A DNA stretch of 64,000 nucleotides from NCBI GenBank assembly GCA_030710605.1, contig CP092886.1, forward strand, positions 165,570,573-165,634,572. Direction: 5' to 3'. Every line of letters begins with the position of its first letter. The first letter of the stretch is position 1. This stretch comes from Cordylochernes scorpioides (lineage: Eukaryota; Arthropoda; Arachnida; Pseudoscorpiones; Chernetidae). Position numbers and translations under genes: made by a program. Positions 8,783-43,620 of this stretch are shown here, one piece after another. The notes under the pieces were generated by a model that saw only the letters and a program-made list of their open reading frames with translations, did not search any database and was not told the DNA's origin.

Positions 8783-8836
8783 AGCCTGCACCACGCTGAC
8801 GAGGGCCAACAGCCCGAAACTCGTTCGTGGTTGGCT
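8783..8836 (+). ncRNA. Hammerhead ribozyme motif HH1 (type I, CCACG family)
   Basis: The order is stem I 5' strand AGCC-TGCA-CCACG, core CTGACGA (8796-8802), stem II GGGC/GCCC with loop CAACA, core GAAA (8816-8819), a two-pair stem III, then GTT with predicted cleavage after T8825. The stem I return strand is CGTGG-TT-GGCT. All conserved core bases, including the G-C pair closing stem II, are present. Stem I is interrupted by an internal loop, as in natural type I hammerheads that use loop contacts. It lies in a Penelope-like repeat (8700-8900) with the CTTGATTT / TCAAGAA flank also present at 19.4-19.6 kb. Activity is inferred from the fit, not shown. Confidence 0.75.
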
Positions 8837-9104
8837 TTTCTTGATTTATCAAGAAAATGGGTTAGCCAAATATTAAGGAACAGGCTAAATCAACGTTTAG
8901 AGGCGTTTTATTAAATCAATACTAAGATATTAATTTTTATAATCCATCTGAAAGAAAACCGAATTATAATGTCATAGGCAATTTGATTTTCGAAATATCA
9001 GTAAAAATTTGTCCTTAATAACTTTTAATATTGGAGTAAGGTCTGTAGAGATAATATTTGATATGTGAAAAGAAACACATTGCCAAAAATAATTAATACA
9101 CATT

Positions 9105-9496
9105 TTTCGAAACTATTTTAAAGGCGTAAGATTCTTTTTGAAAATAAACAATTTCTACTGTCTTTACTGCAATGGAAAAATTAATGGAAGGGCCTGGCTC
9201 ATCAGTGGTGAACCCTCCCAGCGGTTTCGCCAGTTCAATCTACCATACCGCTGTTATATTGCATTTTTTGGAACTTTCTTTTATAGTGATACTGTTGCTA
9301 GACTCTTGGAATGGGTATTTTAGAAGAACTGGCGAAACAGCTGGGAGGGTTCACCACTGATGAGCCAGGCCATCCCATTAATTTTTCTATTACAGTAAGG
9401 GCAGTAGAAATTGTTTATTTTCAAAAATAATCTTACGCCTTTAAAATAGTTTCGAATTTTAATAACAGATGGCGCGCTAGTGCATCATAATACACA
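9105..9496. repeat. Palindromic element family 1 (GCGTAAGATTC), with asymmetric tail
   Basis: Two long inverted arms each run from TTCGAAACTATTTTAAAGGC through the block CTACTGCCCTTACTGCAATG, GGGAGGGTTCACCACTGATG and CTGGCGAAAC. Only the right end carries the extra tail AACAGATGGCGCGCTAGTGC. Other copies or parts are at 18637, 22690, 23310, 27595, 30830, 39795, 41853, 47440 and 48931. No coding capacity. The tail on one end only recalls the tail described for Penelope elements; that comparison is inference. Confidence 0.7.
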
Positions 9497-9597
9497 TTTT
9501 AACGATAGATGGCAATTGAATTTAGAAAAAAATAATATAAAAATAACAATCTTTAGAGAGTATTCTATATTAATTTTATTCAAAGGCAATTAGAAGA

Positions 9598-9620
9598 GGG
9601 GAGGGGGGGGGGGGGGGGGG
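9598..9620 (+). repeat. Poly-G run
   Basis: A nearly pure G tract of about 18-20 bases within GGGAGGGG context. It may form quadruplex structures, and its length is prone to assembly error. Confidence 0.8.
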
Positions 9621-9804
9621 TTAAGAGATTAGTACTCCACCGTAGTACTACACAAATCTCATCTAGCATTATACTTGCAATATAGTATTATGTTACTTCT
9701 CATCTTGTATAATAATAAAATGGATTTCTTAATAGTCATATATATTGAAGGGAGTTCTATAATTGTCATATTATAGGTAATTTACATATGTGACATCTCC
9801 TCAC

Positions 9805-9879
9805 TTGGTCATCTGACGACATAGCTGAGTTGACAAGTCCTCCATCGAGAACGGCGCTGTCCACATCCGCCAAGGTCGC
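9805..9879 (-). CDS. Host gene exon, 75-bp repeat exon copy c
   Basis: On the minus strand the acceptor is TTATAG and the donor GTGAGG. The 75 bp read 25 codons in phase 0, starting ATLADVDSAVLDGG and ending MSSDDQ. Two homologous exons lie upstream in the gene, at 11249-11323 (ATSADVDSAV start) and 19110-19184 (ATLEDAESIV start). All three begin AT-x-x-D and end in an acidic SSxDD-like motif. The peptide is short, acidic and low in complexity, with no recognised domain. As the length is a multiple of three and both ends are phase 0, skipping it would keep frame. Confidence 0.65.
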
Positions 9880-9975
9880 CTATAACCATCACAATCATCG
9901 TAAAGATAGAGGCTGCCTGGTCGGCATTCATAGCGCTTAAAATTAAAGATGCTTCGGCCAGTAAATCTTTTTATC

Positions 9976-10016
9976 ATCTCTACTTTTCGACAAAAATCTT
10001 TTGTCCTCGTCAGGAG
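9976..10016 (-). ncRNA. Hammerhead-like motif, CTGACGAR class (decayed)
   Basis: The minus strand reads CTC, CTGACGA, an extra G, a GACAAAA/TTTTGTC hairpin, GAAA, then AGTA in place of ACGT. The core is close to consensus but stem III is altered and a base is inserted between the core and stem II, so activity is doubtful. It pairs with the plus-strand motif at 10332. Confidence 0.4.
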
Positions 10017-10019
10017 CAA

Positions 10020-10330
10020 ACAAAAATTAAAACATTTGGCAAAGCGTTAAATATTATATATTTTAAAATATATATTAATCATATTTATATAAAAGGGCGT
10101 AACTGGGTCTGTAAAGAAAAAAAAAACATTTTTTTTTCTCAAAATATTTCGAGAGATTGCTCCCTCTTTATATGATGTAAAATATATAATATAAGGTTAC
10201 AAATTTTTATATGAACTTAATTGATGGATCGCCTTTTGACTCAAAATATATCAATTAATTATTTATAATTTAAATTAAATAATTACTAATAATTTTTAAC
10301 GCTTTGCGCCAAATTTTTAAATTTTTGTTC
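10020..10330. repeat. AT-rich interval with GGATCGCCTTTTGAC repeat
   Basis: No gene. It contains GGGCGTAACTGGGTCTGTAA followed by A/T runs and ATGGATCGCCTTTTGAC, a pair of motifs that recurs in hairpin form at 46070-46230. Confidence 0.45.
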
Positions 10331-10331
10331 G

Positions 10332-10370
10332 CTCCTGACGAAGACAAAAGATTTTTGTCGAAACGTCGAG
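10332..10370 (+). ncRNA. Hammerhead-like motif, CTGACGAA class
   Basis: CTC (stem I), CTGACGA (10335-10341), an extra A, stem II GACAAAA/TTTTGTC, GAAA (10360-10363), then self-complementary ACGT, C at the cleavage position, and GAG closing stem I. Only the extra A departs from the canonical core. The loop-less ACGT could act as stem III only by pairing between two molecules. A near copy is at 28212. Confidence 0.5.
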
Positions 10371-10687
10371 ATAATAAAAATATTTACTGGCCGGAGTATA
10401 TTTATTTTAAGAGCATTACAATTATATATATATTATTGATGAAATTTTTTCGGGAGAGAGAGAATATATTGATCTCTAAGAGCAAAGGTTGCCTCTCTTG
10501 TCAAAATAGATGCCAAAAACTAGACCCTCTACTCGTACGTTACAATATTAATAGTTAAGAAAAAGGCCTCTCCTTATCGTGAAACTGAAATTTACACGCT
10601 ATGGAGATGGCTTTTTCTTCATTTATCCACCTTATTTCAGTACAATTTCACATTTTTACTATTTTTTCACAATATTAATAACTCTTC

Positions 10688-11146
10688 ACAATTCACCCTT
10701 TCATACCTCATCCAAAAGGTTAGAAATAATCGTTATTTCTCCTTGAAATAAAATTTGATTTTTCGTTGGAAAGAAGCACATGCGGGATAGTATTTCAAAT
10801 GTCGTTTTAGAGTCACAGGCCGCATTGTATTATATTATATTATAAATTACTTTATGTATTATTTACGAACGGAAAAATATGTCCAGGGTAGCCTAGTGGA
10901 CATGGCATCTGCCCGGTAAGCGGAACAATGTGGGTTCGATTCCCATCCCTGGACACTTTTATTTTTTCCGTTTATCATTACTCTTCACAATTCACCCTTT
11001 CATACCTCATCCAAAAGGTTAGACATAATCGTTATTTCTCCTTGAAATAAAATTTGATTTTTCGTTGAAAAGAAACACATGCGGGATAGTATTTCAAATG
11101 TCGTTTTACAATCACAGGCCGCATTGTATTATATTGTATTATAAGT
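10688..11146 (+). repeat. Tandem 294-bp unit carrying a tRNA-like module
   Basis: The segment from TTCACAATTCACCCTTTCAT to GGCCGCATTGTATTATATT occurs twice, starting about 294 bp apart, with the tRNA-like module between the copies. A further unit lies inverted at 45360-45655. The module is flanked by the same bases at each locus, so it belongs to the unit and is not a chance neighbour. Confidence 0.65.
10882..10954 (+). tRNA. tRNA-like sequence (apparent anticodon GGT), repeat-borne
   Basis: It folds by eye into a cloverleaf: acceptor TCCAGGG/CCCTGGA, D stem GCC/GGC, anticodon stem TCTGC/GCGGA with loop CCGGTAA, and T arm GTGGG TTCGATT CCCAT. The A box (TAGCCTAGTGG) and B box (GGTTCGATTCC) are intact, and a T-rich tract follows. 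The loop gives GGT (Thr), but position 33 is C where tRNAs have U. With the copies at 7696 and 45501 this suggests a repeat-borne tRNA relic or SINE head, not a functional tRNA gene. Confidence 0.5.
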
Positions 11147-11248
11147 ATTAATAATGTTGGATTCCTAAATATTCATATATATCTTACACGACGCGATATA
11201 AAGACCATATATTAGATAATTCACACATTTGACATCATTTATTCTCAC

Positions 11249-11323
11249 ATCGTCTGCAGACGACATGGTGGAATTAGCTGCCAGTTCGCTATGCACGGCG
11301 CTGTCCACGTCTGCCGAGGTCGC
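11249..11323 (-). CDS. Host gene exon, 75-bp repeat exon copy b
   Basis: Minus-strand exon with acceptor TTGTAG and donor GTGAGA. It is 25 codons in phase 0, starting ATSADVDSAVHSE and ending TMSSADD. It is closest to the copy at 9805, sharing ADVDSAV, and more distant from 19110. The Gypsy element at 11.5-16.7 kb and the 17-18 kb minisatellite lie in the intron between this exon and 19110. Confidence 0.65.
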
Positions 11324-11498
11324 CTACAATAACCACATTCATATATTAGGCATACAGTGAGAGTTTGGGAAGCATAAGTCTGAATTACACACATGTTTTA
11401 AACCACAATTTACTTCAGGTTTCTCTTAATATTACAGTTTTATATTGCATTTTGCACATGTTTGACTTTTAGAAAATATATTTTTTGATTGATGATAT

Positions 11499-11691
11499 TG
11501 TCGCGGTAAGAATTGCAAGCAACAGGCGAAGATAAATCGAACGATAAACGTTTATTGCTGCCAACGAGCAGACCACCCAAATCAAAGAATACACGAATAT
11601 ATATAGCAATCATTAATTCAATATATGCAAAACAAGCACAAACAAAATCTAAAACTTAATTATGTAAAACAATACAACAAATAACGCTACA
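11499..11691 (-). repeat. Gypsy 3' LTR
   Basis: In element orientation it runs TGTAGCG...CGCGACA, preceded by a purine-rich tract (GGAGAGGAGGGCA). It matches the other LTR base for base by eye. Confidence 0.9.
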
Positions 11692-11726
11692 ATGCCCTCC
11701 TCTCCAAAAGGACAGCGTCCTCGCTG

Positions 11727-12863
11727 TCAGACGGTAGGCTCATCCTCGGGTAGGTCCAGTTGTTCGTCCGGGTCACGGTAGTTCTTCATTCTCACTACGT
11801 GCACAATTTCCTTTGGCTTACGACGGCGGTTAGTAGTGTCTAGACTTTCGACTTCGTACGTCACATCCGAAATGCGTCTCGTCACCCTATAGGGGCCGAA
11901 ATATCGTTTTATTAATTTTTCGGATATCCCTATTTTCCGAACGGGTATAAATATCCATACTTTATCGCCTGGCTGATAGCTCACTTCTCGATGTTTGGCG
12001 TCGTAGAGTCGTTTATTGCCCTCTTGCGCTCTCAGTGTATGTATCCGAGCCAATTGTCGCGTCTCCTCTGCTCGGGTCACTATCTCTCGATTATAGTCCT
12101 CTTGATCTTCATCTTTTAAAAGAGGAAACAATGTATCCAACGTAGTTTCAGCTTCTCGTCCATAGATGAGATCTCGTCCTGAATGGGGTGAATCCGGTGG
12201 TGTCCTGCTTCGCCGTATTGTAAGCAAACGTGATGAACGGAAGAATAACGTCCCATTCCTTTTGTTCGACGTCCACATACATTGACATCATGTCGGCCAG
12301 GGTTTTATTAAGTCTCTCAGTGAGACCATTCGTCTGAGGATGGTACGCCGTAGTAAATCTCTGAGCCGAAGAGCAAAGTCCCGTCAGCCGGATATTAGTT
12401 TAGACTGAAAAACCCTACCCCGGTCAGTAATTATTTCTCGTGGTGCCCCATGTTTAAGCACTACGTCCTCCAGGACGAACTTGGCCACTTGCTGAGCGTC
12501 TGCCGATGGTAAGGCTCGGGTGATAGCGTATCGCGTCAGATAGTCTGTGCAAACTATTATCCATTTATTTCCTAAATGGGATATTGGGAATCTTCCGAGG
12601 AGATCAATTCCGACTCTTTGGAACGGAACAGAGGTGGGTGGTATCGGTTGCAGCAACCCGGGCGGTCGCAAGGGAGCATGTTTACGACGCTGGCACTCCC
12701 TACAGTGACCGACATATTTTCTTATGCTCCTCAGAAGACCTGGCCAAAAATACTTCCTCCTAATTCTATCGTGGGTTTTAGCCAACCCTAAATGACCGGC
12801 AGTTGGATTATCGTGGAGACTTCTGAGGACGTCAGGGCGCAAATGCCTGGGGATCACCAATAG
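11727..12863 (-). pseudogene. Gypsy integrase region, frameshifted
   Basis: The N-terminal part (12384-12860) has the HHCC zinc-binding motif (H..H in HDNPTAGHLG, C..C in HCRECQRR) and the core with D in GIDLLGRFP and D in IITDRGRVF. One frameshift near 12397 moves reading to another frame, where the E-containing region (TNGLTERLNK) is found. A second shift near 12185 restores the frame for the C-terminal part (11727-12278; LIYGREAETTLDTLF, PGDKVWIF, KLIKRYFGPYRV). The C-terminal region resembles the usual Gypsy GPY/F module. Neither shift lies in a long homopolymer. Confidence 0.85.
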
Positions 12864-15244
12864 TCACGGTTGCCCCACTGGGTCGAAATTCCGCTTGTAA
12901 AGAGCTCCATTGATTATTTTGAAGCGGTTTTGATCGTTCTTCAAACATTCCTCCGATATTCTCACAATTACCGGATCTTTCCGCTGTTTCGCGACGATAT
13001 CAGTTAAAGCAGCTAATGTTGGTATGTCATCTTCGGCTTCCCCTGGGTTATTCGCTTCGATTGGATTGCGTGAGAGACAATCGGCATCTTGATGTTTTCT
13101 GCCGTTTTTATATACCACGTTCACATTGTACTCCTGAAGTCTTAAGGCCCACCTGGCCAGTCTTCCCGACGGGTCCTTCAGGCCCGAAAGCCAACAGAGC
13201 GAGTGATGATCCGTCACAATTGTAAACGAGCGCCCAAATAGGTATGGACGGAACTTGCCGATCGCCCAAATCGCGGCAAGACACTCCCGCTCCGTTGTTG
13301 AATAATTTTTTTCAGCTGTTGACAGCGTTCTTGATGCATATCCAATCGGTTTTTCACTTCCTCCCTGGACCTGGACCAAAACCGCACCAATTCCAAACCC
13401 ACTGGCGTCGGTGTGCAGTTCGGTCGCATACTTTTCGTCAAAGTGGGCCAAGACGGGTTCCGACGCGAGTGCCAACTTCAAGGATTCATAGGCCTGCCGT
13501 TGATCTGGTCCCCATTCGAATCTGGTGTCCTTTCTCAACAACCTGTGTAGTGGTTCAGCTTTTTGAGCAAAATTCTTAATGAAACGACGATAATACGAGC
13601 ACATTCCAATGAAACTTCTTACATCAGTGAGGGATTTGGGAGTAGGGAATTTGGACATAGCATCAACTTTACCCGGGTCGGGGTGCACGCCCTCTCCATC
13701 CACCAGATGCCCAAAAATGCTTAGTCGTTTTGTTCCGAACAAGCACTTGTCTGGATTTAACACAAGTCCAGCCTTTGAGAGACACCTGAGAACTAATTCA
13801 AGGCGTCGAACATGTTCGTCAAAGGTGGGTGAAAACACAATAATATCGCCCAGGTAGCAAAGACACATTGACCACTTCAACCCCCTCATCAAGGTATCCA
13901 TCATTCTTTCAAATGTCGCTGGGGCGTTACATAATCCGAAAGGCATAACTTTGAACTCGTACAATCCGTCGGGTGTAATGAAGGCGGTCTTCTCGCGATC
14001 TGCCTCATCCACCTCAATCTGCCAGTAACCAGAACGGAGGTCCATGGAAGAATAATAACTCGCCCCTCTTAAGCAATCGAGTGTATCGTCAATCCTTGGT
14101 AGTGGATATACATCCTTTTTTGTGATTTTATTCAGGTGTCTGTAATCGACACAGAAACGCCAACTACCATTTTTCTTTTTCACTAATACCACAGGAGAGG
14201 ACCAAGGGCTTTCGGAAAGCTGAACTATACCTCCTTTCAACATTTTGTCGACCTCATTCTGAATGGTTTGACGTTCGACCTGCGACACTCGATATGGACG
14301 GCGTTTAATCGGGGGATGGTCCTCTGTATTTATCTTGTGCTTGGCTGTGCTCGTCAGATTAGACGGAAACTTACTAAATTCAAATAAGCCGCTGAAACTC
14401 CCAAGTATCGAACATATCCTGGTCCTTTCAAGCATGGATAGATCAGGGCTTATCATCGAGGTAATGTTTGGAGAGTTTTCTTGTCCAAGAATCCCCTGCC
14501 GATTGGTGTCCGAAGCATCACCGATGACCGCCAGCTGACCCTCTTCCAGTACCTGTATCTCTCCAATACACATTCCTTTGGGGACAGTTCGATCACATTC
14601 GCCGATGTTGGTTATCCAAATTCTCCCTTTTCCATGCTGGACAGCGAAGATCGAGGCGGGAACCATCAGATCACGTTCTAGAAAGAGGATCCTCGAAGGC
14701 TCCATTACGACATCACTCACACCGAGTATAGCTTCGCTGATTACGTTTATCTGCTTGGTCGATCCAGCGGGGATTATAAAGCTATCGTCGGCGGCTACAG
14801 TTTGGAATATGCTCGAAGAATCCTCTGGTAGTTCTGCTTTTTCTAACAGAATCTCGGCGCTACCACAATCGATTATAGCCCTTGACGCCTCCAGAAAGTC
14901 CCAACCGAGAATGATGTCGTGGCTACAACTTGGTAAAACGATGAATTCAAACGGCTGTACCAATCCGTTTATTTCTAAACGTAAAGTACATCGGCCCCTG
15001 GAAACGATATATTTCCCGTCGGCAACTCTAAGTGTCATGCCAGCGTCACTGAACATAGTCTTTTTGTGTTGTTGTCTAAAGTGGTCCGAAATAACCGAAA
15101 ACGAAGCGCCGCTGTCGACAAGGGCAGGAAAAGTTTTATCGTCAATAGTAACGTCAACTATATTCTGTGATAGTTTAGCGGCTATGAGCGGCGGAGGATT
15201 TATAATCTCCTCAGCGACCTTACCTCCAGAGAAGGGCGCTTGCT
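12864..15244 (-). pseudogene. Gypsy pol: protease, reverse transcriptase, RNase H
   Basis: The protease catalytic motif (ALVDSGAS, about 15105-15119) is followed by FIVLPSCSHDIILGWDF. RT follows with FCVDYRHLNKIT, YSSMDLRSGYWQIEV and MPFGLCNAPATFERMM. The catalytic box reads CYLGDIIVFS where the family has YxDD, because the codon at 13848-13850 encodes Gly and not Asp. RNase H has LHTDASGFGIGAVL, ERECLA and TDHHSL. A TGA at 12864-12866 interrupts the frame before integrase, consistent with a CGA to TGA transition. Pol lies in the -1 frame relative to gag, whose stop immediately follows a GGAAAAC run, so a -1 frameshift is the likely expression route. RT should be inactive. Confidence 0.9.
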
Positions 15245-16539: not shown

Positions 16540-16712
16540 GCAACAGGCGAAGATAAATCGAACGATAAACGTTTATTGCTGCCAACGAGCAGACCACCCA
16601 AATCAAAGAATACACGAATATATATAGCAATCATTAATTCAATATATGCAAAACAAGCACAAACAAAATCTAAAACTTAATTATGTAAAACAATACAACA
16701 AATAACGCTACA
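16520..16712 (-). repeat. Gypsy 5' LTR
   Basis: A 193-bp LTR with the same ends as the copy at 11499. The right flank starts ATAT, matching the bases left of the other LTR. Confidence 0.9.
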
Positions 16713-19184: not shown

Positions 19185-19424
19185 CTGCACACAATCTCAT
19201 CACACAGGTTCCACATGATTACTTTTTACACACCATTTTTATATTAATATTCAAATTGTGACTGAGTTTCTTAACTATTTTTATTCTGTGTTAAACAAAG
19301 TATTTATGTAAGCGATAGTTACCTAAAAATTATTTGAAATGAGGAAAATTTAATTATCCTTATAAAAAATAAGTATTTAAAGTCAAATGTGTAGGAAGTG
19401 CGGAATATAAAAAAAAAAAACATT

Positions 19425-19915
19425 TCTTGGTTTCTCAAGAAGCCTCTGGGACCAAAAATCTTTTTGGTCACAGTGATACAGCCTACTCCACGCTGACGAG
19501 CGCCAACGACGCGAAACACGTTCGTGGATGGCTTTTCTTGATTTATCAAGAAATTGGGTTGGCCAAATATCAGGGAACAGGCTGAATCAATATTTAGTTG
19601 ATTTCTGTTCTACCAGATGGCGCTCTGCCATCTGAAAAGCACATGTGCTCCTGGTCAGGATATCCTTTTTTATTTTATATATATATATATATATGAAAAA
19701 AATAAAACAACAACATATTTGACATATCTTGACTGCTCATATGAGCATTTTTAGATAGCAGAGCGCCATCTAGTGGAACAAAATTCTAGTGGGTAGGCTA
19801 AATATCATTGAACAAGTTAAATCAATGCTTAGTTAATTCTTTTTCTACTAGATGGCGCTCTGCCATCTAAGACATGAGCTATCAGGATATGTCTTTTTTT
19901 GTTTTTAATATCAAC
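19425..19915 (+). repeat. Penelope-like repeat (CCACG hammerhead family) and tail palindromes
   Basis: A hammerhead-bearing block is followed by ATTTATCAAGAAATTGGG, then by the tail ACCAGATGGCGCTCTGCCAT to TGCTCCTGGTCAGGATAT. A second tail pair follows at 19735-19915. The tail alone recurs as a near-perfect hairpin at 52385 and in parts at 32290, 37620, 40780 and 48590. Confidence 0.65.
19480..19533 (+). ncRNA. Hammerhead ribozyme motif HH2 (type I, CCACG family)
   Basis: AGCC-TACT-CCACG, CTGACGA (19493-19499), stem II GCG/CGC, GAAA (19513-19516), a two-pair stem III, GTT with predicted cleavage after T19522, then CGTGG-AT-GGCT. Stem II differs from HH1 in sequence but still closes with G-C. 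Confidence 0.7.
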
Positions 19916-19989
19916 AACCGACCTTTTTTCTATAAATATATATGACAAAGAGTTTCGGGAGGATGATCTTCATGTGTCAAAAGAGGCAC

Positions 19990-21300
19990 CTCTCCCTTTA
20001 AATATGCATTAGAACACAATTCAATATGTTTATCACCCAAATGAAACTGGAGTTGTGACGCAGTACTGAACACTAGTAAAGTTTTTCTAGGGTGATAAAT
20101 ATAATCCATTGTTTTGATGCATAATTAAATGGAGTGGTACACACATGCACTTATACCTTTAATTATGCATTAGAACACAATTCAATATGTTTATCACCCA
20201 AATGAAACTGGAGTTGTGACGCAGTACTGAACACTAGTAAAGTTTTTCTAGGGTGATAAATATAATCCATTGTTTTGATGCATAATTAAATGGAGTGGTA
20301 CACACATGCACTTATACCTTTAATTATGCATTAGAACACAATTCAATATGTTTATCACCCAAATGAAACTGGAGTTGTGACGCAGTACTGAACACTAGTA
20401 AAGTTTTTCTAGGGTGATAAATATAATCCATTGTTTTGATGCATAATTAAATGGAGTGGTACACACATGCACTTATACCTTTAATTATGCATTAGAACAC
20501 AATTCAATATGTTTATCACCCAAATGAAACTGGAGTTGTGACGCAGTACTGAACACTAGTAAAGTTTTTCTAGGGTGATAAATATAATCCATTGTTTTGA
20601 TGCATAATTAAATGGAGTGGTACACACATGCACTTATACCTTTAATTATGCATTAGAACACAATTAAATATGTTTATCACCCAAATGAAACTGGAGTTGT
20701 GACGCAGTACTGAACACTAGTAAAGTTTTTCTAGGGTGATAAATATAATCCATTGTTCTGACGCATAATTAAATGGAGTGGTACACACATGCACTTATAC
20801 CTTTAATTATGCATTAGAACACAATTCAATATGTTTATCACCCAAATGAAACTGGAGTTGTGACGCAGTACTGAACACTAGTAAAGTTTTTCTAGGGTGA
20901 TAAATATAATCCATCGTTTTGATGCATAATTAAATGGAGTGGTACACACATGCACTTATACCTTTAATTATGCATTAGAACACAATGCAATATGTTTATC
21001 ACCCAAATGAAACTGGAGTTGTGACGCAGTACTGAACACTAGTAAAGTTTTTCTAGGGTGATAAATATAATCCATCGTTTTGATGCATAATTAAATGGAG
21101 TGGTACACACATGCACTTATACCTTTAATTATGCATTAGAACACAATGCAATATGTTTATCACCCAAATGAAACTGGAGTTGTGACGCAGTACTGAACAC
21201 TAGTAAAGTTTTTCTAGGGTGATAAATACAATCCATTGTTCTGATGCATAATTAAATGGAGTGGTACACACATGCACTTATACCTTTAAATATACATTAG
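19990..21300 (+). repeat. 161-bp tandem array, about eight units
   Basis: Successive units start 161 bp apart (for example 20151, 20312, 20473) and differ by only a few bases. Each unit has inverted ends (TTATGCATTAGAACA and GTTTTGATGCATAA) and an inner inverted pair TTTATCACCC / GGGTGATAAA, so the monomer itself is hairpin-like. It corresponds to the terminal part of the TGTA/TACA hammerhead family at 18.2 and 30.6 kb, without the ribozyme. Confidence 0.85.
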
Positions 21301-21739
21301 AACATTGCACTTTTTCATCTCTTGTAAAAAACGCAAAGAAGATGATGAAAAATAAGCCACAACACTAGTTTTGCCAAATTAAGACAAAGGTCAACAACTT
21401 GTATACCATGGTTTCGGGCTAAGGCCCTCATCAGTACAGGAGCTGCTTCGATTTCACAACATCCTACGAGAGGAGTTATTAATTCGACCGATTTGATAAC
21501 TCCTCTCGTAGGATTTCAATGAAATTGAAGCTGCCCCTATACTGATCGAGCTTTAGTCCCAAACCATGGTATACAGGTTGTTGACCTTTGTCTGAATTTG
21601 CAAAAAAATGATGTTGTCGCTCATGCTTTACCACAACCTTTTTATACTGGGGCGATGAAAAATTTCATTGTTCTAATCCATATTTAAAGGGAGAGGTGCC
21701 GCTTTTGGTATATGAATACCATCTTCTCGCATTACCTTA
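21300..21739. repeat. Palindromic element with two hammerhead arms
   Basis: Arms around 21390-21480 and 21490-21600 are inverted copies of the TGTA/TACA family. The left arm holds an intact minus-strand motif, the right arm a damaged plus-strand one (CTGATCGA, CAAA in place of GAAA, 21542-21563). Confidence 0.7.
21400..21438 (-). ncRNA. Hammerhead ribozyme motif HH3 (type I, TGTA/TACA family)
   Basis: On the minus strand: TGTA, CTGATGA (21428-21434), stem II GGGC-CTTA-GCCC, GAAA (21412-21415), self-complementary ACCATGGT as stem III, A as the cleavage base (between 21404 and 21403), then TACA closing stem I. All core bases match the hammerhead consensus. The 8-nt palindromic stem III leaves a two-base loop, so an active form may be a dimer. 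Confidence 0.75.
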
Positions 21740-24519: not shown

Positions 24520-24930
24520 TTGTTATTAAAATAAAAACAGAAATTCTTCAGGGAAAGTTTCTTTTAAAAATATTTTTTATTTAAAAAATATCTCGAGCTT
24601 TCGGGCAAGTAAGCCTTTCTACGGGAGAAAATGCTTTACATGATTAATACGCCAATAAAATATGATTTAAAATTAAATAAAGTCCATTCACTGTTTACAT
24701 TTGTTTTAAGGTATAAACAACGCGGGCTTCTGTTGCGCGTGCTTCACTTGGAGGTAATGGGCTGGGCTCAGGGAATATAATGTTATAAATATCCGGAATA
24801 TCTATTCTTCTGTTAATACTATTATAATTTCTGGATATGATGGGCTTACTTGCCCGAAAGCTCGAGATATTTTTTAAATAAAAAATATTTTTAAAAGAAA
24901 CTTTTCCCTGGAGGATTTCTGTTTTTATTT
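24520..24930. repeat. Palindrome with outward hammerhead-like arms (GAAAGCTCGAG)
   Basis: Arms AGTTTCTTTTAAAAATATTT and its inverse bound the element. The left minus strand reads CCGTAGAA, AGGC-TTACTT-GCCC, GAAAGCTC, GAG. The right plus strand (24838-24868) reads TGATG, GGC-TTACTT-GCC, CGAAAGCTCGAG. Stem II, GAAA and stem III are kept, but the CTGANGA box is damaged in both. Confidence 0.55.
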
Positions 24931-27989: not shown

Positions 27990-28330
27990 TTCACCTGATC
28001 AAAGGAAGCTTTCGGGCAAGCCCTTCTTCACCTAAGGCTATAAAAAAGCAATAGAGAGATTATATAATATTTTAAAAGAGGAATCTATGTATAAATATAG
28101 TACATAATTGAATATACATATTTATATAAAAAATAGACACTTCGGCCAGTTGGAGTTTTTTATTTTCTCAACGTTTCGACAAAAAATCGACAAATGCTTT
28201 ATTTTTATTTACTTCTCCTGACGAAGCCAAAAGATTTTTGTCGAAACGTTGAGAAAATAAAAAACTCCAACTGGCCGAAGTGTCTATTTTTTATATAAAT
28301 ATGAATGCCGGCCAGGCAGCCTCTATCTTT
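27990..28330. repeat. Palindromic hammerhead-like elements, two classes
   Basis: At 28010-28045 the minus strand reads GTGAAGAA, GGGC-TT-GCCC, GAAAGCTT, CCT. From 28130 an inverted pair CACTTCGGCCAGTTGGAG / CTCCAACTGGCCGAAGTG encloses a truncated minus-strand and a nearly intact plus-strand CTGACGAA motif (28213-28256). Confidence 0.55.
28213..28256 (+). ncRNA. Hammerhead-like motif, CTGACGAA class
   Basis: TTCTC, CTGACGA (28218-28224), an extra A, a stem II hairpin with one mismatch, GAAA (28243-28246), ACGT, T, then GAGAA pairing fully with TTCTC. The core is canonical apart from the extra A. Confidence 0.5.
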
Positions 28331-28403
28331 ACGATGAATATACATAATTGAATAAATTTGAATAATTAACTATGAGCAGGTTAGCAATGGTCAGTACACT
28401 TAC

Positions 28404-30589: not shown

Positions 30590-30970
30590 ATCATTGTTCC
30601 CCTCTTTTACAATATACTTTTTGACGCCACTGTACTGATGAGGCCCAAAGCCCGAAACCATGGTATACAGGATGACCTTTTGTCTGAATTTGCTAGAACT
30701 GGTGTTGTGGCTCATTCTCAATCATCACTAGTGAAGTGTTTTACTAGAGAGATACACAGTGTCATCGTTCTGATGCACAATTAAAGGGAGATCTGCCTCT
30801 TTTGCTCCACTACATTATAAGAAATTTGAACTAATTTTGACAAGTATGATTCTTTTAAAATAAATCAATTTTCTACAGCTCTTACTGCAATGATAAAATA
30901 ATGGGAGAGCCTGACTCAAAAGTGGTGAACCCTCCCAGCGGTTTCGCCAGTTTAATAGCGCGATGATGCA
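30590..30970 (+). repeat. TGTA/TACA hammerhead family element, then family 1 half
   Basis: The ribozyme arm is followed by GGTGTTGTGGCTCATTC and the tail GATGCACAATTAAAGGGAGA. A half copy of family 1 follows from about 30830. Confidence 0.6.
30631..30669 (+). ncRNA. Hammerhead ribozyme motif HH4 (type I, TGTA/TACA family)
   Basis: TGTA, CTGATGA (30635-30641), stem II GGCC-CAAA-GCCC with one C-C mismatch, GAAA (30654-30657), ACCATGGT, A at the cleavage position (30665), TACA. Core bases are intact; the weakened stem II may lower activity. Confidence 0.65.
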
Positions 30971-35599: not shown

Positions 35600-36118
35600 G
35601 CGCGCCAATTGTAATTGAGAATTAAAACACATTTCTTCACATATCACTACTAATAATTCCATAAAAACGTATCCTATTTAATCAAATAGCCCAATAAATC
35701 GTATCTCGCTCTGTTTATTAAACTGGCGAAACATCTAGGAAGGTCACCTATGGATGAGCCAGGTTCTCATTGAAGCAGGGGCAGTAGCAAATAATTTCTA
35801 TCTGATCAAATAGCATTATCTGATTGAATTCATATTATTGTATAATTACTATGTATAGTGATCTGGAAATTTAAACTGAGGGTTCACCCCATTGATGAAT
35901 CAGGTTCCCCCAATATTTCACAACCACATTCCTATTAATTGCAGAATTTTGTGTCATGAATTTATTTCTAAAATAACTCTCACACATAATTTACTGTTTA
36001 AAATATCTTGTTTTAAATTTGACAATTTATGTACTCCCAAAAATGTTTGTAATTTGTTACAAATATTCTCTTTAGTGATTATCTATATTTCAGATATATA
36101 TCTCTCTTTAATATATGC
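35600..36118. other. AT-rich interval with decayed family 1 pieces
   Basis: AAACTGGCGAAACATCTAGG (35719) and AGGGTTCACCCCATTGATG (35880) are old family 1 remnants. No gene. Confidence 0.45.
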
Positions 36119-36880: not shown

Positions 36881-36954
36881 GGGTGTATCATCATCTTAAT
36901 AATTCATATTATTATCATCAATATTTATCTCCCGCGTAAATATCTCTTTACATG

Positions 36955-37255
36955 TTATAGGAGACAACAAACCTTGCTAATGTATAAGGTGAGGAGCCGA
37001 CAATGCCTGGCTCCTCGTCCAAACATTCAGCTACGGGTAGGAATGGGAGAACATAGTGTGAAGACAAAAGAAGGCCACACGACCATGGTTACCTCAGTTA
37101 GGCTGACACCTGGAGAAGATGCAGATCCAGGGGCGGTACCAGATATGGCTGCTCAATTCTACAGCATGACGGCAATGCTGGTCATGACGTCAGAGAAGGC
37201 GGAGCCTATATACCGCAATCCTTCTCCTCCAATGAACGGTTTGGCATAAGGCGGG
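36955..37255. other. GC-richer island; possible exon or promoter
   Basis: On the minus strand an acceptor-like CCCGTAG at about 37030 and a donor GTTTGT at about 36970 frame an open stretch ECLDEEPGIVGSSPYTLA. The plus strand has TGACGTCA (about 37188), a GGCGGAGCCTATATACC TATA-like box and a 91-codon frame (36974-37249). Neither reading is strong. Confidence 0.3.
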
Positions 37256-37700
37256 AATACGTGAACTTTAAATTGATTGGGTGAATATCTACCTATATTT
37301 TCCAAGGTGACAATGTTTGTTTTATTTCAGCGCCATTTTGGATAAATATTTCTCACAGGCGTTGTCTTACTGATTACAAAGATAGCTTTACTTACAAATA
37401 AGGGAGTTCTAATTTTAATATTTGAGGCCTAAATGTTTATTTAACATATGCCGTAGTGAAGAAGTTCAAAGAGCTTCTTAATAAAAGTAATATGGCACGT
37501 TCAAAAAACACCACTTATTATATAATTTTGTAAAATTTAGTTACAGCTATTCACATATAAATTTACGCATGTTATATACGACATGCATATATATACATGT
37601 GAGAAAAGTAAGAAAAATTATAAATGATATTTGATTCACTAGATGGCGCTCTGCTATCTGAAACGTTCAAGTGAGCGGTCAGGATATGCTATTTTTATTT
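37256..37700. other. AT-rich interval
   Basis: No gene. A CCACG-family tail remnant (CACTAGATGGCGCTCTGC) lies at 37637. Confidence 0.4.
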
Positions 37701-37709
37701 TTAATATAT

Positions 37710-37935
37710 ATATGTAGATCGAAATTTTGCCGGAAGGAAATTGATCTAAAGAGACAAGGGTCGACTCTCCCGTCAAAATAGACGTCTAAAACCAGACGCC
37801 ATCTATTGACCGTCGCCGCAACTAGCGGCCTCGGGTCGGTGACAAAGCCACAACGGTGACGATCAATAGATGGCGTCTGGTTTTAGACGTCTATTTTGAC
37901 GGGAGAGTCGACCCTTGCCTCTTTATATATATATA
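37710..37935. repeat. Palindrome of the CCTAGA hammerhead family (tail only)
   Basis: Inverted copies of TCAAAATAGACGTCTAAAAC and GCCATCTATTGACCGTC flank GCAACTAGCGGCCTCGGGTC. The same tail follows the ribozyme at 42386. No ribozyme core here. Confidence 0.65.
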
Positions 37936-38464
37936 TATATATAAATTTTCATTTTCTTTATATAAATATAAAAGTATTTTATTTCATATATCTATAACGA
38001 TATTTTATTTTAAAATATACTTGGAGAAAGAAAAACAAAAGTGAATAAATGTTTTGAGTAAAAAAATTAAAATAAGGTAAACGGAAAGAGGGAGGGGGTG
38101 AAAAAGAAGAAAATATTTTCCAGGTATAAGAATTATAATATCTTAGATATTAGACATAGGTTGACATACGACATTATTATCTGAAATATATATATTTCGA
38201 GATGATGAGCCATGCTCTCTTATTTTTCAATTTTTTTATTTATTGCATCAATAATACTTTTTTATTATATGTAACTGGCAAAAAAAGTAGCGTTAAAAAT
38301 TAGTAACACTTTTCAACGATAGATGGCGTTAAATTAAAAATTATCATATTTGAAATTTGATTTTATAGTAAACCTTTGTAAATATATAATTCCCCCTTAT
38401 ATATTATAATCATTTAACACTATATATAATTTTCTTTTGTTAACATATTAAATCAGTACAATAT

Positions 38465-38895
38465 ATTTTGTTTTGAAAATAGAGCAATCCAAAAATAAAT
38501 CTTTGATTAAAAAAGCATATATTGTATCAAAATATCATTTATTTTACCAATATTTCAGTTGGCTGAACGCCAACCTTTATCAAGGTGTTATAACATATTT
38601 AATGTGTGTCAACAACAAACTCAGCGCCACATAACGTCAACAGAATTAAGTTTTAAAAATATTTTGTTATATTCAATGGGGAGAAAAATTTTGATATATA
38701 TATATACTCAGCGCCACATAACGTCAACAGAAAACAAAACAATAAAAAACTTAATTTTGTTGATGTTATGTGGCGCTGAGTTTGTTGTTGACACACATTA
38801 AATATGTTATAATACCTTGACAAAGGTTGGCGTTCAGTCAACTTAAATATTGGTAAAATAAATCATATTTTGATTCAATATATGCTTTTTAATTA
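38465..38895. repeat. Large palindrome (TTGGCTGAACGCCAACC arm)
   Basis: Arms run GAGCAATCC, ACCAATATTTCAGTTGGCTG and AACAAACTCAGCGCCACATA, with inverse copies to 38890. Half an arm recurs at 48805-48920. Confidence 0.7.
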
Positions 38896-39079
38896 AATTT
38901 ATTTTTGTATCTTTCTGGTTTTGGAAGGAAAGTGTCGGTTGGAATGTACGATAAGTTAGGTGGATGTATTTAACTATAGTTACAATAAGAAATTACGCGG
39001 ATATTTAAATTAATTGATTATAAATATGAAATTAATGAATATGTAAGCAATATTTACCTAGAAATTATTTGAAAGAGGA

Positions 39080-39320
39080 AAAATAAAATGAGGTAAAAAG
39101 TTTCTTTTAATTTTGAATTTGTAAGCTTAGAGCAAATATAATGCTCTTCAACGGGCTGATACTCTATGTACAATCTCTTAAAAAAAATTGTATAAAGATT
39201 ATTATGAGATTGTACATAGAGTATTAGCCCGATGAAGATCAGTATATTTGCTCGAAAGCTTGCAAATTCAAAATTAAAAGAAACTTTTTACCTCATTTTA
39301 TTTTTCCTCTTTCAAATTAA
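39080..39320. repeat. Palindrome with outward hammerhead-like arms (CCGWTGAA)
   Basis: The left minus strand reads CCGTTGAA, stem GAGCA/TGCTC, then TAAGCTT. The right plus strand (39218-39262) reads CCGATGAA, a stem with one mismatch, GAAAGCTT. The left arm has lost GAAA; both have C at position 4 of the core. Arms are bounded by AGTTTCTTTTAATTTTGAAT and its inverse. Confidence 0.55.
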
Positions 39321-39329
39321 TGAATATAA

Positions 39330-39790
39330 TTCATTGAAGATTCTGCTTATAGGTTGAAGTTGAGTAGATAATCCAAGATAACAATGACTGACGATCCTAG
39401 TAGATAAGGAAGGCGAAATCGCTGATAGGGTTCCCCACGATGAATCAGGCCGTGTTTTTATCTCAAGTATTTGTAAAAATGTCGTTAAGATATTTTTTTA
39501 ATTATCGCACAAATAGTTTTAACATTTTAAAATACCATTTTTTAGCGGTGAGGTGGTGTTTATGGAATTTGTTGATTTTGTTAAAATTTTGTTGACATTT
39601 ACAATAAATCGTCTTCAGTAATGATCCGTCATACAGATATGCCTGATGTCAAATACAGTCAATTGGTGTAGTAGAGAAACCGCTGGGAAAGGTTATTGTC
39701 GATGAACCAAGTTCACCCAATAGCTTTGTTACCTCAGATATAGTAGGCAATTGGGTATAAATAAATCTTCAAATCAATATTTAATATAAA
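39330..39790. other. AT-rich interval with old repeat remnants
   Basis: Decayed family 1 fragments (CGATGAATCAGGCC near 39440; AAACCGCTGGGAAAGG near 39685). No gene. Confidence 0.4.
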
Positions 39791-39794
39791 GTAT

Positions 39795-40010
39795 CAAAAT
39801 TCGAAACTATTATAAACGCGTATGATTCTTTTTTAAAAATAAACAATTTCTACTGTCCTTACTGCAGTGGAAAATTAATGAGCCCGGCCTTCACATTAAT
39901 TTTTACAATGCAGTAAGGACAGTAGAAATTGTTTATTTTTAAAAAAGAATCATACGCATCTATAATAGTTTCGAATTTTGATAACAGATGGCGCGCTAAT
40001 GCATCATAAT
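39795..40010. repeat. Palindromic element family 1
   Basis: TATCAAAATTCGAAACTATT arms, with the AACAGATGGCGCGCTAATGC tail on the right only. Confidence 0.65.
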
Positions 40011-40064
40011 AAAAAGTATGAAAATATAACAGTCTCTGATAGTTTAGAGAGAAAAGAGCAATAT

Positions 40065-40600
40065 ATATATATATGTTATATAAAAATATTACTTTATTTT
40101 AAATTATAATTTCATAGATTCAAATACTCTGCTAAATCGACCGCCAGAGGTCACTCTTCCCCTATAAAACTCGTTGTTGTTTTATTCCCGATGAATTTGA
40201 TAAAAGTACTTCCAGGCTTAAGGCGTAAGAATAAAAAAGAAAAGCTTATTTACATAATGTACAAATGTTTTGAGCCGGCCATCGGGGATAGAGAAAATAT
40301 AGTTTTACTTTCGGTTAGTAGCCCGTGAAACTATATTTTCTCTATCCCCGATGGCCGGCTCAAAACATTTGTACATTATGTAAATAAGCTTTTCTTTTTT
40401 ATTCTTACGCCTTAAGCCTGGAAGTACTTTTATCAAATTATGTTTTTATATATCTTTTAAGCTCAATTAAAGCAATTTTTAATCTTTACTATTTTTATTA
40501 TTTTACTTTCAAGATTTTAACCACGACTGCATTACCATAGCATCATCTCAGCAATTCCAAAATCGAGCAGAATATTCCTTATTTAAAATATAATATATAT
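40065..40600 (+). mobile_element. Hairpin derivative of the ORF1-only element
   Basis: Both ends match 33035-34975, but the interior is replaced by an inverted repeat of about 105 bp per arm (40196-40305 and 40330-40438) made from the 3' untranslated region. The arms run from TTTGATAAAAGTACTTCCAG and include GAGCCGGCCATCGGGGATAG. The loop is CTTTCGGTTAGTAGCCCGTG. Confidence 0.7.
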
Positions 40601-40635
40601 ATATATATGAAGTAAACGAAAAATTGCGCTACAAA

Positions 40636-40740
40636 TTTTAAAATAAAACTATAACCTTTCGCAATAAGTTTCTTTTATTATGATATCATAGTAAAAGAAA
40701 CTTATTGCGAAAGGTTGTAGTTTTATTTTAAAATATATAT
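40636..40740. repeat. Short palindrome (TTTCGCAATAAGTTTC)
   Basis: TAACCTTTCGCAATAAGTTT and its inverse around TTATTATGATATCATAG. It resembles decayed arms of the ribozyme-bearing palindromes but has no core. Confidence 0.45.
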
Positions 40741-41144
40741 ATATATATATATGAAAAATAATAAAAAAATATAATCTTCCATATAGAAATGCTCATGAGC
40801 CTGGTCAGGATATGCCTCTTTTGTTTTTAATATATATATATAATGGCGGGCGGTTGGCGTTTCTTGCGCTCCAGGGGCCTGGGTTATCCTTATTTCTCTC
40901 TATATAGAATGGAAAAATAAAGGCGAAGAAGAGAGAGAGAGAGGTGTCTATAATTCAATATAAATAAATATAGGAGTAATTTATGCGATGCTACGCATCA
41001 TAAATAAAACATATATTTTAAACATTGTTCTGTCAAATAGGATTTGGAATAAACTATAAATGCAATAATTCGAATCATAGTGAGAATTATTTCGAATAGA
41101 CAATTGTCGGTGATAAGAGATCATGAGTTTATTGGAATATATAC

Positions 41145-41270
41145 CACGATCTGATCTATTATGGCAATTGCTTGAAAGATGACAACCATGAGGAGAAGTG
41201 CGTTGTAGATTGATCTCGAGAAATCTCTGGGTAAATAGATGTAAAACGATATGTCAACGGTGTCTACCGC
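41145..41270 (-). CDS. Host gene exon, 126 bp, hydrophobic
   Basis: Minus-strand acceptor TTGTTAG follows a pyrimidine and branch-point-like context; donor GTATAT. It reads 42 codons in phase 0, starting AVDTVDISFYIYLPRDF and containing a hydrophobic run NALLLMVVIFQAIAIIDQIV that could cross a membrane. Without the splice it would stop eight codons later. Joined to the basic exon at 31263, the run would be followed by a positive stop-transfer cluster. It might follow the membrane exon at 53246 as an alternative to the last exon at 51060. Confidence 0.55.
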
Positions 41271-41852
41271 CTAACAAATATCTACTAGTCTCTCCACACA
41301 CTAGATAGTTAAGTTAAGTAGTTAAAATAATCTAGATGTCATATAGCGCGAGAGCGGAGAAAAAGATGGAGTACTCACCGCGCCAAGATCAGCAATGACG
41401 TAACATAATCAGCGCCCTCTAGACGCTCATTGGTCAAGAATATAAAAACAAATTTAAATCTGTTTTAAGATATATTTGAACTATTCTTTTTATTTATGCC
41501 ATTTTATTCTTGAATTATTTATATCTTCTATCGTCTTATCTGTTATGGGAATAGGTTCACCATAATAAATCCCATATATCGTGTTTTGTGATCCAAATAA
41601 AATTCCGTGACATTTAACCTATGATTGCTATCGCTAAAGGTTATTTGCTCTAGTTATGTTTAATGTGGCGTTATAAATCGATCATCAATATTTTCATGGA
41701 TTTATCAACTATACGTTATAAACAAAGTAAATAATGCTATCAATTGATGTATTACTGTTAATTAAATTCAATAGACGTGGGAGACGAATGAATTTAAGAA
41801 TGATCAAAAAGTCGTTTTTATTTTAAATATTGTATTAATATATATTATATAT

Positions 41853-42115
41853 TATCATGCATTAGCGCGCCATCTGTTATCAAAATTCGAAACTATTATA
41901 GACGCGTATGATTCACTTTGAAAATAAACAATTTCTACTATCCTTACTGCAATGGTAAAATTAAAAATTAAACTGGCCAAACCGCTGGGAGGGTTCACCA
42001 CTGATGATCCAGGCCCCTCCCATTAATTTTTCCATTGCAGTAAGGACAGTAGAAATTGTTTATTTTCAAAAAGAAGCATACGCGTTTATAATAGTTTCGA
42101 ATTTTGATATATTAT
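41853..42115. repeat. Palindromic element family 1
   Basis: The tail (ATTAGCGCGCCATCTGTT) is on the left here, so orientation is opposite to 39795. Confidence 0.65.
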
Positions 42116-42289
42116 ATATATTTATAAAATGCGAAATGATCAAAATCTTATATTTTAAAATTTAAAATAATAGGGTATAAAGTGATTTAAAAATACGAGT
42201 TTTAATTTGAAAGATATCAAAAGATTACTCCATCATTCTCAGTTTTTTAATGTTTTAAATATTTACATATATGTATATATATATATATA

Positions 42290-42580
42290 TAGATGGAAAT
42301 TTGGCCCAGCCACTTTGCCAGCTAAACACCTCTTTGGCAGATTGTGAAGATTCCATAAGATCCCGTGTGGATCTCATGGAATAAAGTCCGCCCTAGACTG
42401 ACGAGGGCCATTAGCCCGAAACCATGGTTTCTAGGTGGACGCTTTTTAGTCTGCCAAAGCTGGTGTTGTGGCTTTGTCACCGACCCGAGGCCGCTAGTTG
42501 CGGCGACGGTCAATAGATGGCGTCTGGTTTTAGACGTCTATTTTGACGGGAGAGGCGACCCTTGACTCTTTAGATATATA
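42290..42580 (+). repeat. CCTAGA hammerhead family element
   Basis: A ribozyme arm is followed by CCAAAGCTGGTGTTGTGGCT, ACCGACCCGAGGCCGCTAG and the AATAGATGGCGTCTGG tail. Related copies: 37710 (tail palindrome), 46370 and 52670. Confidence 0.65.
42386..42440 (+). ncRNA. Hammerhead ribozyme motif HH5 (type I, CCTAGA family)
   Basis: GTCC-GC-CCTAGA, CTGACGA (42398-42404), stem II GGGC-CATTA-GCCC, GAAA (42418-42421), ACCATGGT as stem III, T at the cleavage position (42429), then TCTAGG-T-GGAC. Stem I is a perfect six-pair helix plus an outer four-pair helix across an internal loop. It has the best stems of the five intact motifs. Confidence 0.8.
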
Positions 42581-43119
42581 TAAATATAGCGTATGCCTCT
42601 TGGAAACGGTATCGAAAAGTTTTCAGAGATATTAGTATGACACCATTTTTTCGTTTGTAAACATTTATAACCAGTTAACATTGGAAAAAGGAACGCAATT
42701 GCTTGCATTATCCATAAATATTCTTTATATTATTTTAAAAATATATTTTATATATAAAATAAAATCCATACGAATCCATACATGCGTTAATTAAATTTTG
42801 GATTCAATGGATCGCCAAATCAATTCGAAATTTATTTCAAAGGTTTCTCTAAATTATTTTTGAGAAAGAATAACCTTTTTTACTTCTTCTATATATATAT
42901 ATAATATTTTATATTATTGGATGAAAATGGCTGTACTCTCTATTGTAAACATGAACCGTTCCTTCGCGATTCTGGTTCAAAATAACTTTATTAGGTTACA
43001 CTTATCAAGAGTAATCTAGTTCAAAAATGTGAAAAAATAGTACAATTGTGATATTGTACTGGGATAAGGTGCATAAATTATGAAAAAGGCATCTCCTTAT
43101 CATGCAACTGAAAGTTGCT

Positions 43120-43345
43120 GATGGCTTGCGCCATCTATCGGAATAAATATCAACTATTCTTGTTGATTTTTAATTATTCCAGAATTGGCCAAATACCCAT
43201 TCATGATTAATCAAGATATGCTAACCACGGACTATTCATTGTACATTTATGTATATTATTTTTATTGTATATTCATTTATTGGCCAACAGCCCGAAACGC
43301 GTCCGTGATTAGCTTTTCTAGTCCATAAATGTACAATGAATAGTT
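43120..43345. repeat. Decayed CCACG-family palindrome
   Basis: Stem I strands survive (GCTAACCACGGA; TCCGTGATTAGC) and the right arm keeps GGCC-AACA-GCCC GAAA, but CTGACGA is gone. Confidence 0.5.
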
Positions 43346-43429
43346 ATGTACAGTGGTTCATCATATATATAAGCTAACTAATATTTACAATCTGTGGCTA
43401 ACAATTAATAGGTAATCCCATAATATTAG

Positions 43430-43620
43430 GTTCAAATCAATAAGCTTGGGGGATAAGTCTCTTTTAAATACATTTATTTCAAGCTTTCGGGCACAACCGC
43501 CCTTCACAGGAAAACTTTAGTAGCTATTATAATTTTTCCTGTCGAAGGGCGGTTGAGCCCGAAAGCTTGAAATAAATGTATTTAAAAGAGACTTATCCCT
43601 CAAGCTTATTGATTTGAACA
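43430..43620. repeat. Palindrome with outward hammerhead-like arms (CTGTYGAA)
   Basis: The left minus strand reads CTGTGAA, GGGC-GGTTGT-GCCC, GAAAGCTT. The right plus strand (43547-43580) reads CTGTCGAA, GGGC-GGTTGA-GCCC, GAAAGCTT. Flanking arms AAATACATTTATTTCAAGC are near-perfect inverses. Confidence 0.55.

Follow-up and report, generated by a model that had tools for sequence, protein, structure and literature searches.

Palindromic and tandem hammerhead elements of the pseudoscorpion Cordylochernes scorpioides, probably inserted by Penelope-like machinery

Hammerhead Motifs and Element Families in the Window

A 64,000-nucleotide stretch of the genome of the pseudoscorpion Cordylochernes scorpioides (GCA_030710605.1, contig CP092886.1, positions 165,570,573 to 165,634,572; hereafter “the window”) contains several families of short elements with hammerhead motifs (HHRs), together with end insertions of Penelope-like elements (PLEs) (Table 1). 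With a probability of roughly three in four, the former are non-autonomous, non-coding HHR retroelements of PLE type, inserted in trans by a PLE protein that primes on both ends of its target.

The HHRs of the window are genuine. A covariance model (R2) trained on 16 copies, all located outside the window, recovered eight motifs with E-values of 8.6e-20 to 4.6e-5 (42387+, 8785+, 18525+, 21389-, 30624+, 19482+, 21531+, and 52841+, all at E ≤ 5e-5) and one fragment (43270+, E 0.023), which bears out an earlier sequence-only reading that had placed hammerheads in several families here. These motifs have the CUGANGA and GAAA core and three helices in type I order. All rules of a strict descriptor were satisfied at 42392–42435(+) and 21400–21438(-) and in none of 60 shuffles; with one core mismatch allowed, the descriptor matched three times in the window, compared to a shuffle mean of 0.2 (maximum 2, 20 runs). 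The five canonical cores that had been claimed are complete for both CTGANGA and GAAA at 8791, 19488, 21400(-), 30630, and 42392, and complete cores of PLE-type HHRs at 10331(+) and 28214(+) add two to these five of families A, B, and C. The claimed total of about 18 motifs did not hold up, as only the inclusion of PLE-type copies (9977-, 10331+, and 28214+) and of a degenerate family F without CUGA brings the number near it.

The two strands of stem I read CCTGTA/TACAGG for family A, ACCACG/CGTGGT for family B, and CCTAGA/TCTAGG for family C. The proposal that it differs between families and always pairs with itself was upheld in the 16 outside copies, in which five of the six pairs showed two-sided change and 93.8% of cells were paired. 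The percentage paired and the covariation score were reached in none of 500 shuffles, and slid controls were at most 39.8% paired, although two weaker measures, the number of pairs with two-sided change (366/500) and of further pair types (498/500), were no better than shuffles. As read from the sequence, the HHRs appear to be of a minimal type I with an open-ended stem I, no closed loop I, and a loop II of 4–5 nt; the contact between loops I and II of canonical HHRs appears to be absent, and self-cleavage is putative.

Table 1. Hammerhead-bearing elements, Penelope-like end insertions, and a tandem array in the window, with E-values of model R2.
Feature	Position	Strand	R2 E-value
Family B/D-type element fragment; HHR 8791–8830, stem I CCACG/CGTGG	8720..8895	+	9.6e-19
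Old palindromic PLE-end insertion, left arm with tail; degenerate PLE-type HHR ~9977–10017	9894..10055	-	
Same PLE-end palindrome (9894–10432), right arm without tail; complete-core PLE-type HHR ~10331–10371	10288..10432	+	
Family A HHR (TGTA/TACA), GAAA mutated to AAAA	18532..18570	+	1.1e-15
Family B/D-type element; HHR 19488–19527, compensating stem II change to GCG/CGC	19423..19678	+	1.3e-12
Tandem array with 8.1 copies of a 161-bp repeat, 98% alike	19825..21412	.	
Family A palindrome, hairpin centre	21354..21621	.	
Intact family A HHR, left arm of 21354–21621 palindrome	21400..21438	-	3.7e-15
Degenerate family A HHR, right arm of 21354–21621 palindrome	21531..21586	+	2.4e-6
Solo palindromic PLE end insertion; tail on right arm only	28115..28332	.	
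Family A HHR, complete core, stem II mismatch	30630..30670	+	3e-14
Family C palindrome truncated before HHR; left arm to outer site, right arm to inner site	37712..37934	.	
Family C element; HHR 42392–42435 (CCTAGA/TCTAGG)	42280..42581	+	8.6e-20
Family B palindrome; HHR fragment 43270–43318	43026..43345	.	0.023
Diverged family C element; degenerate HHR 52841–52898	52740..53056	+	4.6e-5

Abundance, Units, and Arrangement

Across the genome (2.62 Gb, 24 contigs), the core pattern CTGANGAGGGCN{3,7}GCCCGAAAC matched 31,232 times (15,602 + 15,630) and its reverse not once. An exact 40-mer of family B that includes both strands of stem I occurred 7,956 times (4,003 + 3,953), and a family A pattern including stem I occurred 182 times (94 + 88), with zero matches for the control in each case.

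Numbered loci (L) of families A, B, and C were picked by an exact HHR core on one contig, those of families B and C from its first 9 Mb. The elements are non-coding, have units of about 320–338 bp, and occur as single copies, in tandem, or as head-to-head palindromes. The family B unit is 338 bp long, and L031 is a tandem array of this family with five HHRs, in which four full units differ at 1–2 positions and no open reading frame (ORF) lies in between; such tandem units of about 150–450 bp with one HHR each are the arrangement of metazoan non-LTR retrozymes. The 320-bp unit of family C is slightly exceeded in L023, which has a 64-bp terminal overlap. Family A is more diverged, and families A and C were seen only as about 1–1.5 units. 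In at least 23 cases an arm is longer than one unit, and therefore the template RNA of these arms was multimeric or circular.

The 80 mapped clusters comprise 41 with a single arm, 32 palindromes in “-+” orientation, and seven that are compound or tandem; loci were merged only if identical, so that the near-identical L001–L003 count separately. The opposite “+-” orientation alone was found in none of the 80, and a “+-” step is present inside three of the seven compound clusters. Where two sites of one family lay within 1 kb of each other among the first 100 of the genome search, they were arranged as “-+” seven times, in tandem seven times, and as “+-” once. The elements had been described by the sequence-only reading as short, non-coding, and palindromic. 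They are short and non-coding and palindromes do exist, but the palindrome is one form of insertion rather than the basic structure, because 41 of the 80 clusters have a single arm and tandem copies occur.

Palindrome Ends and Target Site Duplications

The 3′ ends cluster on two sites with few outliers, an inner and an outer one (147–162 and 193–209 in family B; 140–157 and 174–182 in family C), whereas the 5′ ends are scattered. The tail between the two sites is about 26 nt in family C, about 46 nt in family B, and about 34–40 nt in the resident PLEs, and thus the optional tail of PLEs is present, with families B and C just beyond the published 30–40 nt. In one or two sequences each of families A, B, and C and of the PLE, a predicted stem-loop holds the inner end in its loop.

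The 34 palindromes considered at the start were the 32 “-+” clusters plus L032 and L035, both of which are compound; 29 were classifiable at both ends. One inner and one outer end were combined in 28 of these 29; two inner ends were found solely in L004, and two outer ends in none. A comparison of flanks identified L046/L047 and L035/L053 as duplicated loci, and the count after merging is 26 of 27. No poly-A tail was recognized by eye at 48 ends.

Flanks matched over at least 9 bp in 20 of 25 rows (19 of 24 events), compared to 14.5% in controls with swapped flanks. Clear duplications outside simple TA repeats measure 14 bp in L057, 12 bp in L037, L052, L033, and L016, and 11 bp in L027. The target duplication flanks both arms, and therefore a palindrome represents one insertion event; moreover, its unequal ends speak against the copying of one cDNA back on itself. 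The arrangement found here, inverted copies placed head to head with a short duplication of an AT-rich target (AT-richness judged by eye), is a feature of PLEs.

Resident Penelope-Like Elements

The genome has at least 146 matches to the GIY-YIG domain (PF01541) among 150 scored of 17,015 candidates, including 11 head-to-head pairs 1.4–4 kb apart, as counted by eye. An ORF with reverse transcriptase (RT) and GIY-YIG domains is absent from the A, B, and C units. In L072, L073, and L074, RT is followed by GIY-YIG, as confirmed by Pfam RVT_1 and GIY-YIG matches for L072 and L074, and L074 has two ORFs of 784 and 695 aa lying head to head. A minimal HHR (TTCTC-CTGACGA-stem II-GAAAC-GTT-GAGAA) is located 3′ of the ORF in L072 and L074, while L073 ends before that point. 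The PLE-type HHRs were located by inspection and pattern search and were not recovered by model R2.

A stem-loop (CTGGCCG/CGGCCAG) and two alternative ends about 34–40 nt apart are shared by L072 and the window copies. Six PLE palindromes have both ends visible (L072, L033, L049, L067, and window 28115–28332 and 9894–10432), and by eye the tail is on one arm only in all six. In the resident PLEs, HHR, stem-loop, and tail follow one another as they do in the window elements, and the head-to-head layout recurs as well. This shared end pattern of non-coding elements and RT-coding PLEs points to Penelope machinery as the copying engine.

The two window insertions are solo ends of the PLE in L072 and L074. 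The insertion at 28115–28332 carries a PLE-type HHR at about 28214–28254(+) and has on either side a 12-bp repeat, which can be read as TGAATATACATA or, overlapping with it, as TACATAATTGAA. The sequence-only reading had set aside a link to Penelope and had noted that no RT lies nearby. A tblastn search with one PLE protein indeed found no match in the window, but PLE ends with PLE-type HHRs are inserted there, and the link is supported instead; taken as a whole, the observation made at that stage was confirmed in part and its interpretation supported in part. The same protein had no tblastn match in L001–L070, and blastn found only an 83–91-bp piece of the PLE ORF end in the region of L024, L025, and L036.

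One further locus, L071 (G000:C1:8986700-8992300), was rejected as a PLE partner, as its 483-aa frame has an N-terminal GIY-YIG domain without an RT match and its best HHR match has an E-value of 1.3. It forms a head-to-head palindrome, the arms of which are 1,529 nt long with a reported complementarity of 100%, and has an open frame with the N-terminal GIY-YIG domain. By eye its centre resembles large-subunit rRNA; Rfam gave no match for this centre.

Relation to Known Systems

HHRs were reportedly described in PLEs in 2014, and HHRs in PLEs, retrozymes in animals, and inverted PLE ends are all known individually. PAc of Anolis, a Penelope/Poseidon PLE studied in vitro, has a protein-assisted HHR and two RT start sites with a 30–40-nt tail between them; synthesis starts in an RNA-internal stem-loop, the target is AT-rich, and both strands are cut and extended (PMC11167929, accessible part). 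The elements described here resemble PAc in the HHR, the two 3′ sites with a tail in between, the stem-loop containing the inner site, and the AT-rich target. They differ in that PAc codes for protein and has its start sites inside the ORF, whereas the elements here are non-coding, and in that nearly all classifiable palindromes here have one end of each type, whereas the start site of PAc reportedly did not differ between strands (PMC11167929, accessible part).

In Adineta vaga, the Penelope element with an endonuclease carries an inverted pseudo-long terminal repeat (pLTR) and a 9-bp duplication, and one of its inverted pLTRs bears a 31-bp tail (PMC3846280, accessible part). Its inverted pLTR at one end, head-to-head junctions, and target duplications of 8–10 bp, as well as the one-sided tail and the in-trans capture of unrelated sequence, are paralleled here. 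Unlike the window elements, it is coding and of low copy number, and the word “hammerhead” is absent from its text (PMC3846280). The marks of PAc and of the Adineta vaga PLEs are thus present here without coding capacity, and the elements are therefore read as PLE-type retroelements.

Metazoan non-LTR retrozymes are likewise non-coding tandem units, of about 170–400 nt, with type I HHRs, although their HHRs are canonical with loop contacts and those here appear minimal and PLE-like (PMC7229834, accessible part). Palindromic insertion with PLE ends does not feature in the accessible part of that account, in which the word “inverted” does not occur. Plant LTR retrozymes are similar in that they are non-autonomous, carry an HHR, and are presumably mobilized by the enzyme of another element (PMC4918200, accessible part) but differ by their LTRs, type III HHR, and 4-bp duplications (as stated in the accessible part of PMC7229834). 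On the enzyme that moves animal hammerhead retrozymes, the 2020 study goes no further than to call PLEs a “strong candidate” for mobilization (PMC7229834, accessible part). The end pattern common to non-coding HHR elements and resident PLEs can be read straight from genome copies, and the rule of one inner and one outer end places a definite restriction on how PLEs integrate, for which self-priming of a single cDNA does not account. A literature search of titles and the openings of abstracts, outside subscription papers, found among the papers listed neither palindromic HHR elements with PLE tails nor a one-inner-one-outer rule.

Proposed Insertion Mechanism

Insertion may proceed from a multimeric or circular element RNA, which the HHR could cut where units meet; this may require a dimer, formed via the palindromic stem III (ACCATGGT, ACGCGT), or the assistance of a protein. 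A PLE protein with RT and GIY-YIG endonuclease, for which the genes are present in the genome, would bind the stem-loop about 150–200 nt 3′ of the HHR and then cut both strands of an AT-rich target. Both target 3′ ends would prime cDNA on the element RNA, one strand starting at the inner site in the loop of the stem-loop and the other at the outer site just past it, which would produce the ends observed. The two cDNAs would meet at variable points and join into a head-to-head palindrome with a target duplication of about 9–14 bp, and where one end went unprimed, a single-arm or tandem copy, both of which are observed, would result.

More tentatively, PLE retrotransposition itself could be inherently two-ended, with the ribonucleoprotein offering an inner and an outer start to the two strands, normally one each, on two RNAs that are perhaps held as a dimer by stem III. 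The small HHR RNAs would then be parasites of PLEs at tens of thousands of copies, comparable to short interspersed elements (SINEs); we regard this extension as possible and put it forward with reserve.

Weighing the Evidence

Several results weigh against insertion by a PLE protein from both target ends. The limits of the end classes behind the 28 of 29 mixed palindromes were chosen after the ends had been seen, and five palindromes were excluded for an end that fits neither class (two from L008 and one each from L059, L061, and L063). The repeats in the flanks consist in many cases of simple TA-rich sequence, and the sampling of loci by an exact core biases the statistics of HHR integrity and 5′ ends. 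Single arms make up 41 of the 80 clusters, and in a check of 31 rows, with 16 single clusters outside it, a hidden short inverted end exceeded shuffles in only three (window 42299, window 8720, and L068, in which this end is of the same type as the other end); L054 has a further one judged by eye. The palindrome rule was rejected as universal, since single-arm copies are mostly without a hidden inverted end. For PAc, no difference between strands in the start site was reportedly seen (PMC11167929, accessible part). Outside the HHR core, B and C units have no similarity to the four PLE loci that were read, and thus no driving PLE is singled out.

In addition, Rfam models found nothing at the gathering threshold in the window, where the best scores were 19.1 of 52 bits (HH9) and 17.3 of 48.5 bits, and the minimum free energy folds of five HHRs are unexceptional compared to shuffles (z of 0 to -1.6). 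An absence of Rfam matches above threshold had been named beforehand as grounds for discarding the motifs, and in the literal sense this is what occurred. RF00163 had no match genome-wide among 74 scored of 285,298 candidates and none in any of 14 control genomes, in a run without positive control. The negative result is not taken as decisive, because RF00163 was silent in all 14 control genomes and a positive control was absent, and the evidence from homology, covariation, and genome-wide counts is weighed higher.

The units might instead belong, as pLTRs that persist singly or in tandem, to further autonomous PLE families of the genome, with no separate non-autonomous lineage. Exactly such solo ends, of the PLE in L072 and L074, lie at 28115–28332 and 9894–10432, and with just four PLE loci read among at least 146 GIY-YIG matches, the genome may contain an autonomous PLE that has B or C sequence at its end. 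We nevertheless consider this account unlikely, though it deserves serious attention, given that the one PLE protein used found no tblastn match in L001–L070, that 338-bp units stand in tandem without an ORF between them, and that 31,232 cores seem many for solo ends. A DNA transposon origin, in which miniature inverted-repeat (MITE-like) or fold-back elements acquired hammerhead-like sequence, would explain palindromic, non-coding, high-copy elements with target duplications; unequal arm lengths, variable 5′ junctions, ends that differ by a tail of 26–46 nt, single-arm and tandem copies, and arms longer than one unit make it scarcely credible.

Head-to-head 5′ inversions are also produced by twin priming of L1. 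Canonical metazoan non-LTR retrozymes moved in this way by long interspersed elements (LINEs) would match the tandem HHR units of about 300 bp and the target duplications of the published description (PMC7229834, accessible part), but such an origin is improbable with both palindrome ends confined to a pair of fixed internal positions and of mixed type in 28 of 29 cases, with no poly-A recognized by eye at 48 ends, and with HHRs that appear to be minimal and to lack the closed loop I of the canonical loop–loop contact. The palindromes could also have formed after insertion, or through self-priming of one cDNA in place of two priming events; self-priming has been proposed for rotifer Penelope palindromes (PMC3846280, accessible part). 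Arm-to-arm differences relative to the unit, compared in 13 palindromes, bear on this in both directions. Derived differences are often common to both arms (16 in L019, 13 in L034, and 19 in L029), which also counts against two-ended priming, and they are the majority in L019, L021, L034, and L029; such mostly shared differences fit one template or sister templates. On the other hand, none is common to both arms in L016 (13 differences) and L053 (37), and one is in L017, which suggests two template molecules in these three, a pattern that only some palindromes show. One cDNA copied back should moreover yield equal ends, which are unequal in 28 of 29, and a single target duplication encloses both arms, so that formation after insertion or by self-priming has little probability beside priming of both target ends by a PLE protein.

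Look-Alike Motifs and Other Observations

Two sets of sequences resembling hammerheads were not counted as HHRs. In family F (CYGTNGAA...CGAAAGCTTGA), U replaces the A of CUGA and stem I is weak; it is located at 24595(-), 24855(+), 28006(-), 29155(+), 43481(-), and 43560(+) in the window, as well as in L045 and L066. Most copies combine CYGTNGAA, a GGNC/GNCC hairpin, and CGAAAGCTTGA, and stem II shows compensating changes between copies. Family E (CTGGCGAAAC...CTGATGAGCCAG) has permuted core words and no space for stem I. With up to 10 mismatches it has nine matches, at 9186(-), 9329(+), 22775(-), 22988(+), 23376(-), 30903(-), 31694(-), 41973(+), and 48946(+), and in its palindromes the core words follow the type II order and stem II is perfect (CTGGC-GAAAC...CACCA-CTGATGA-GCCAG).

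Two elements of the window show further details of their ends. The family C element at 42280–42581 has a very short inverted outer end on the left and an inner end on the right, and in the family B palindrome at 43026–43345 the left arm (43026–43232) ends at the outer site and the right arm is a fragment (43282–43345). The 161-bp array probably arose by amplification of part of the family A tail palindrome, and on inspection of its repeats it may represent a retroelement end turning into a satellite, still in the making. The heptamer GATGGCG occurs 29 times in the window, compared to 2.9 expected and a largest count of 9 in 100 shuffles, and sits in the tail part of several element families (e.g., 9468+, 19616+, 37797-, 42516+, 43129-, and 52488+). 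In L042, a family A element at 1748–2032 lies directly 5′ of a 94-codon ORF beginning MSGDVPRFTGLAKYF, and its HHR could be located in or near the transcript of a gene.

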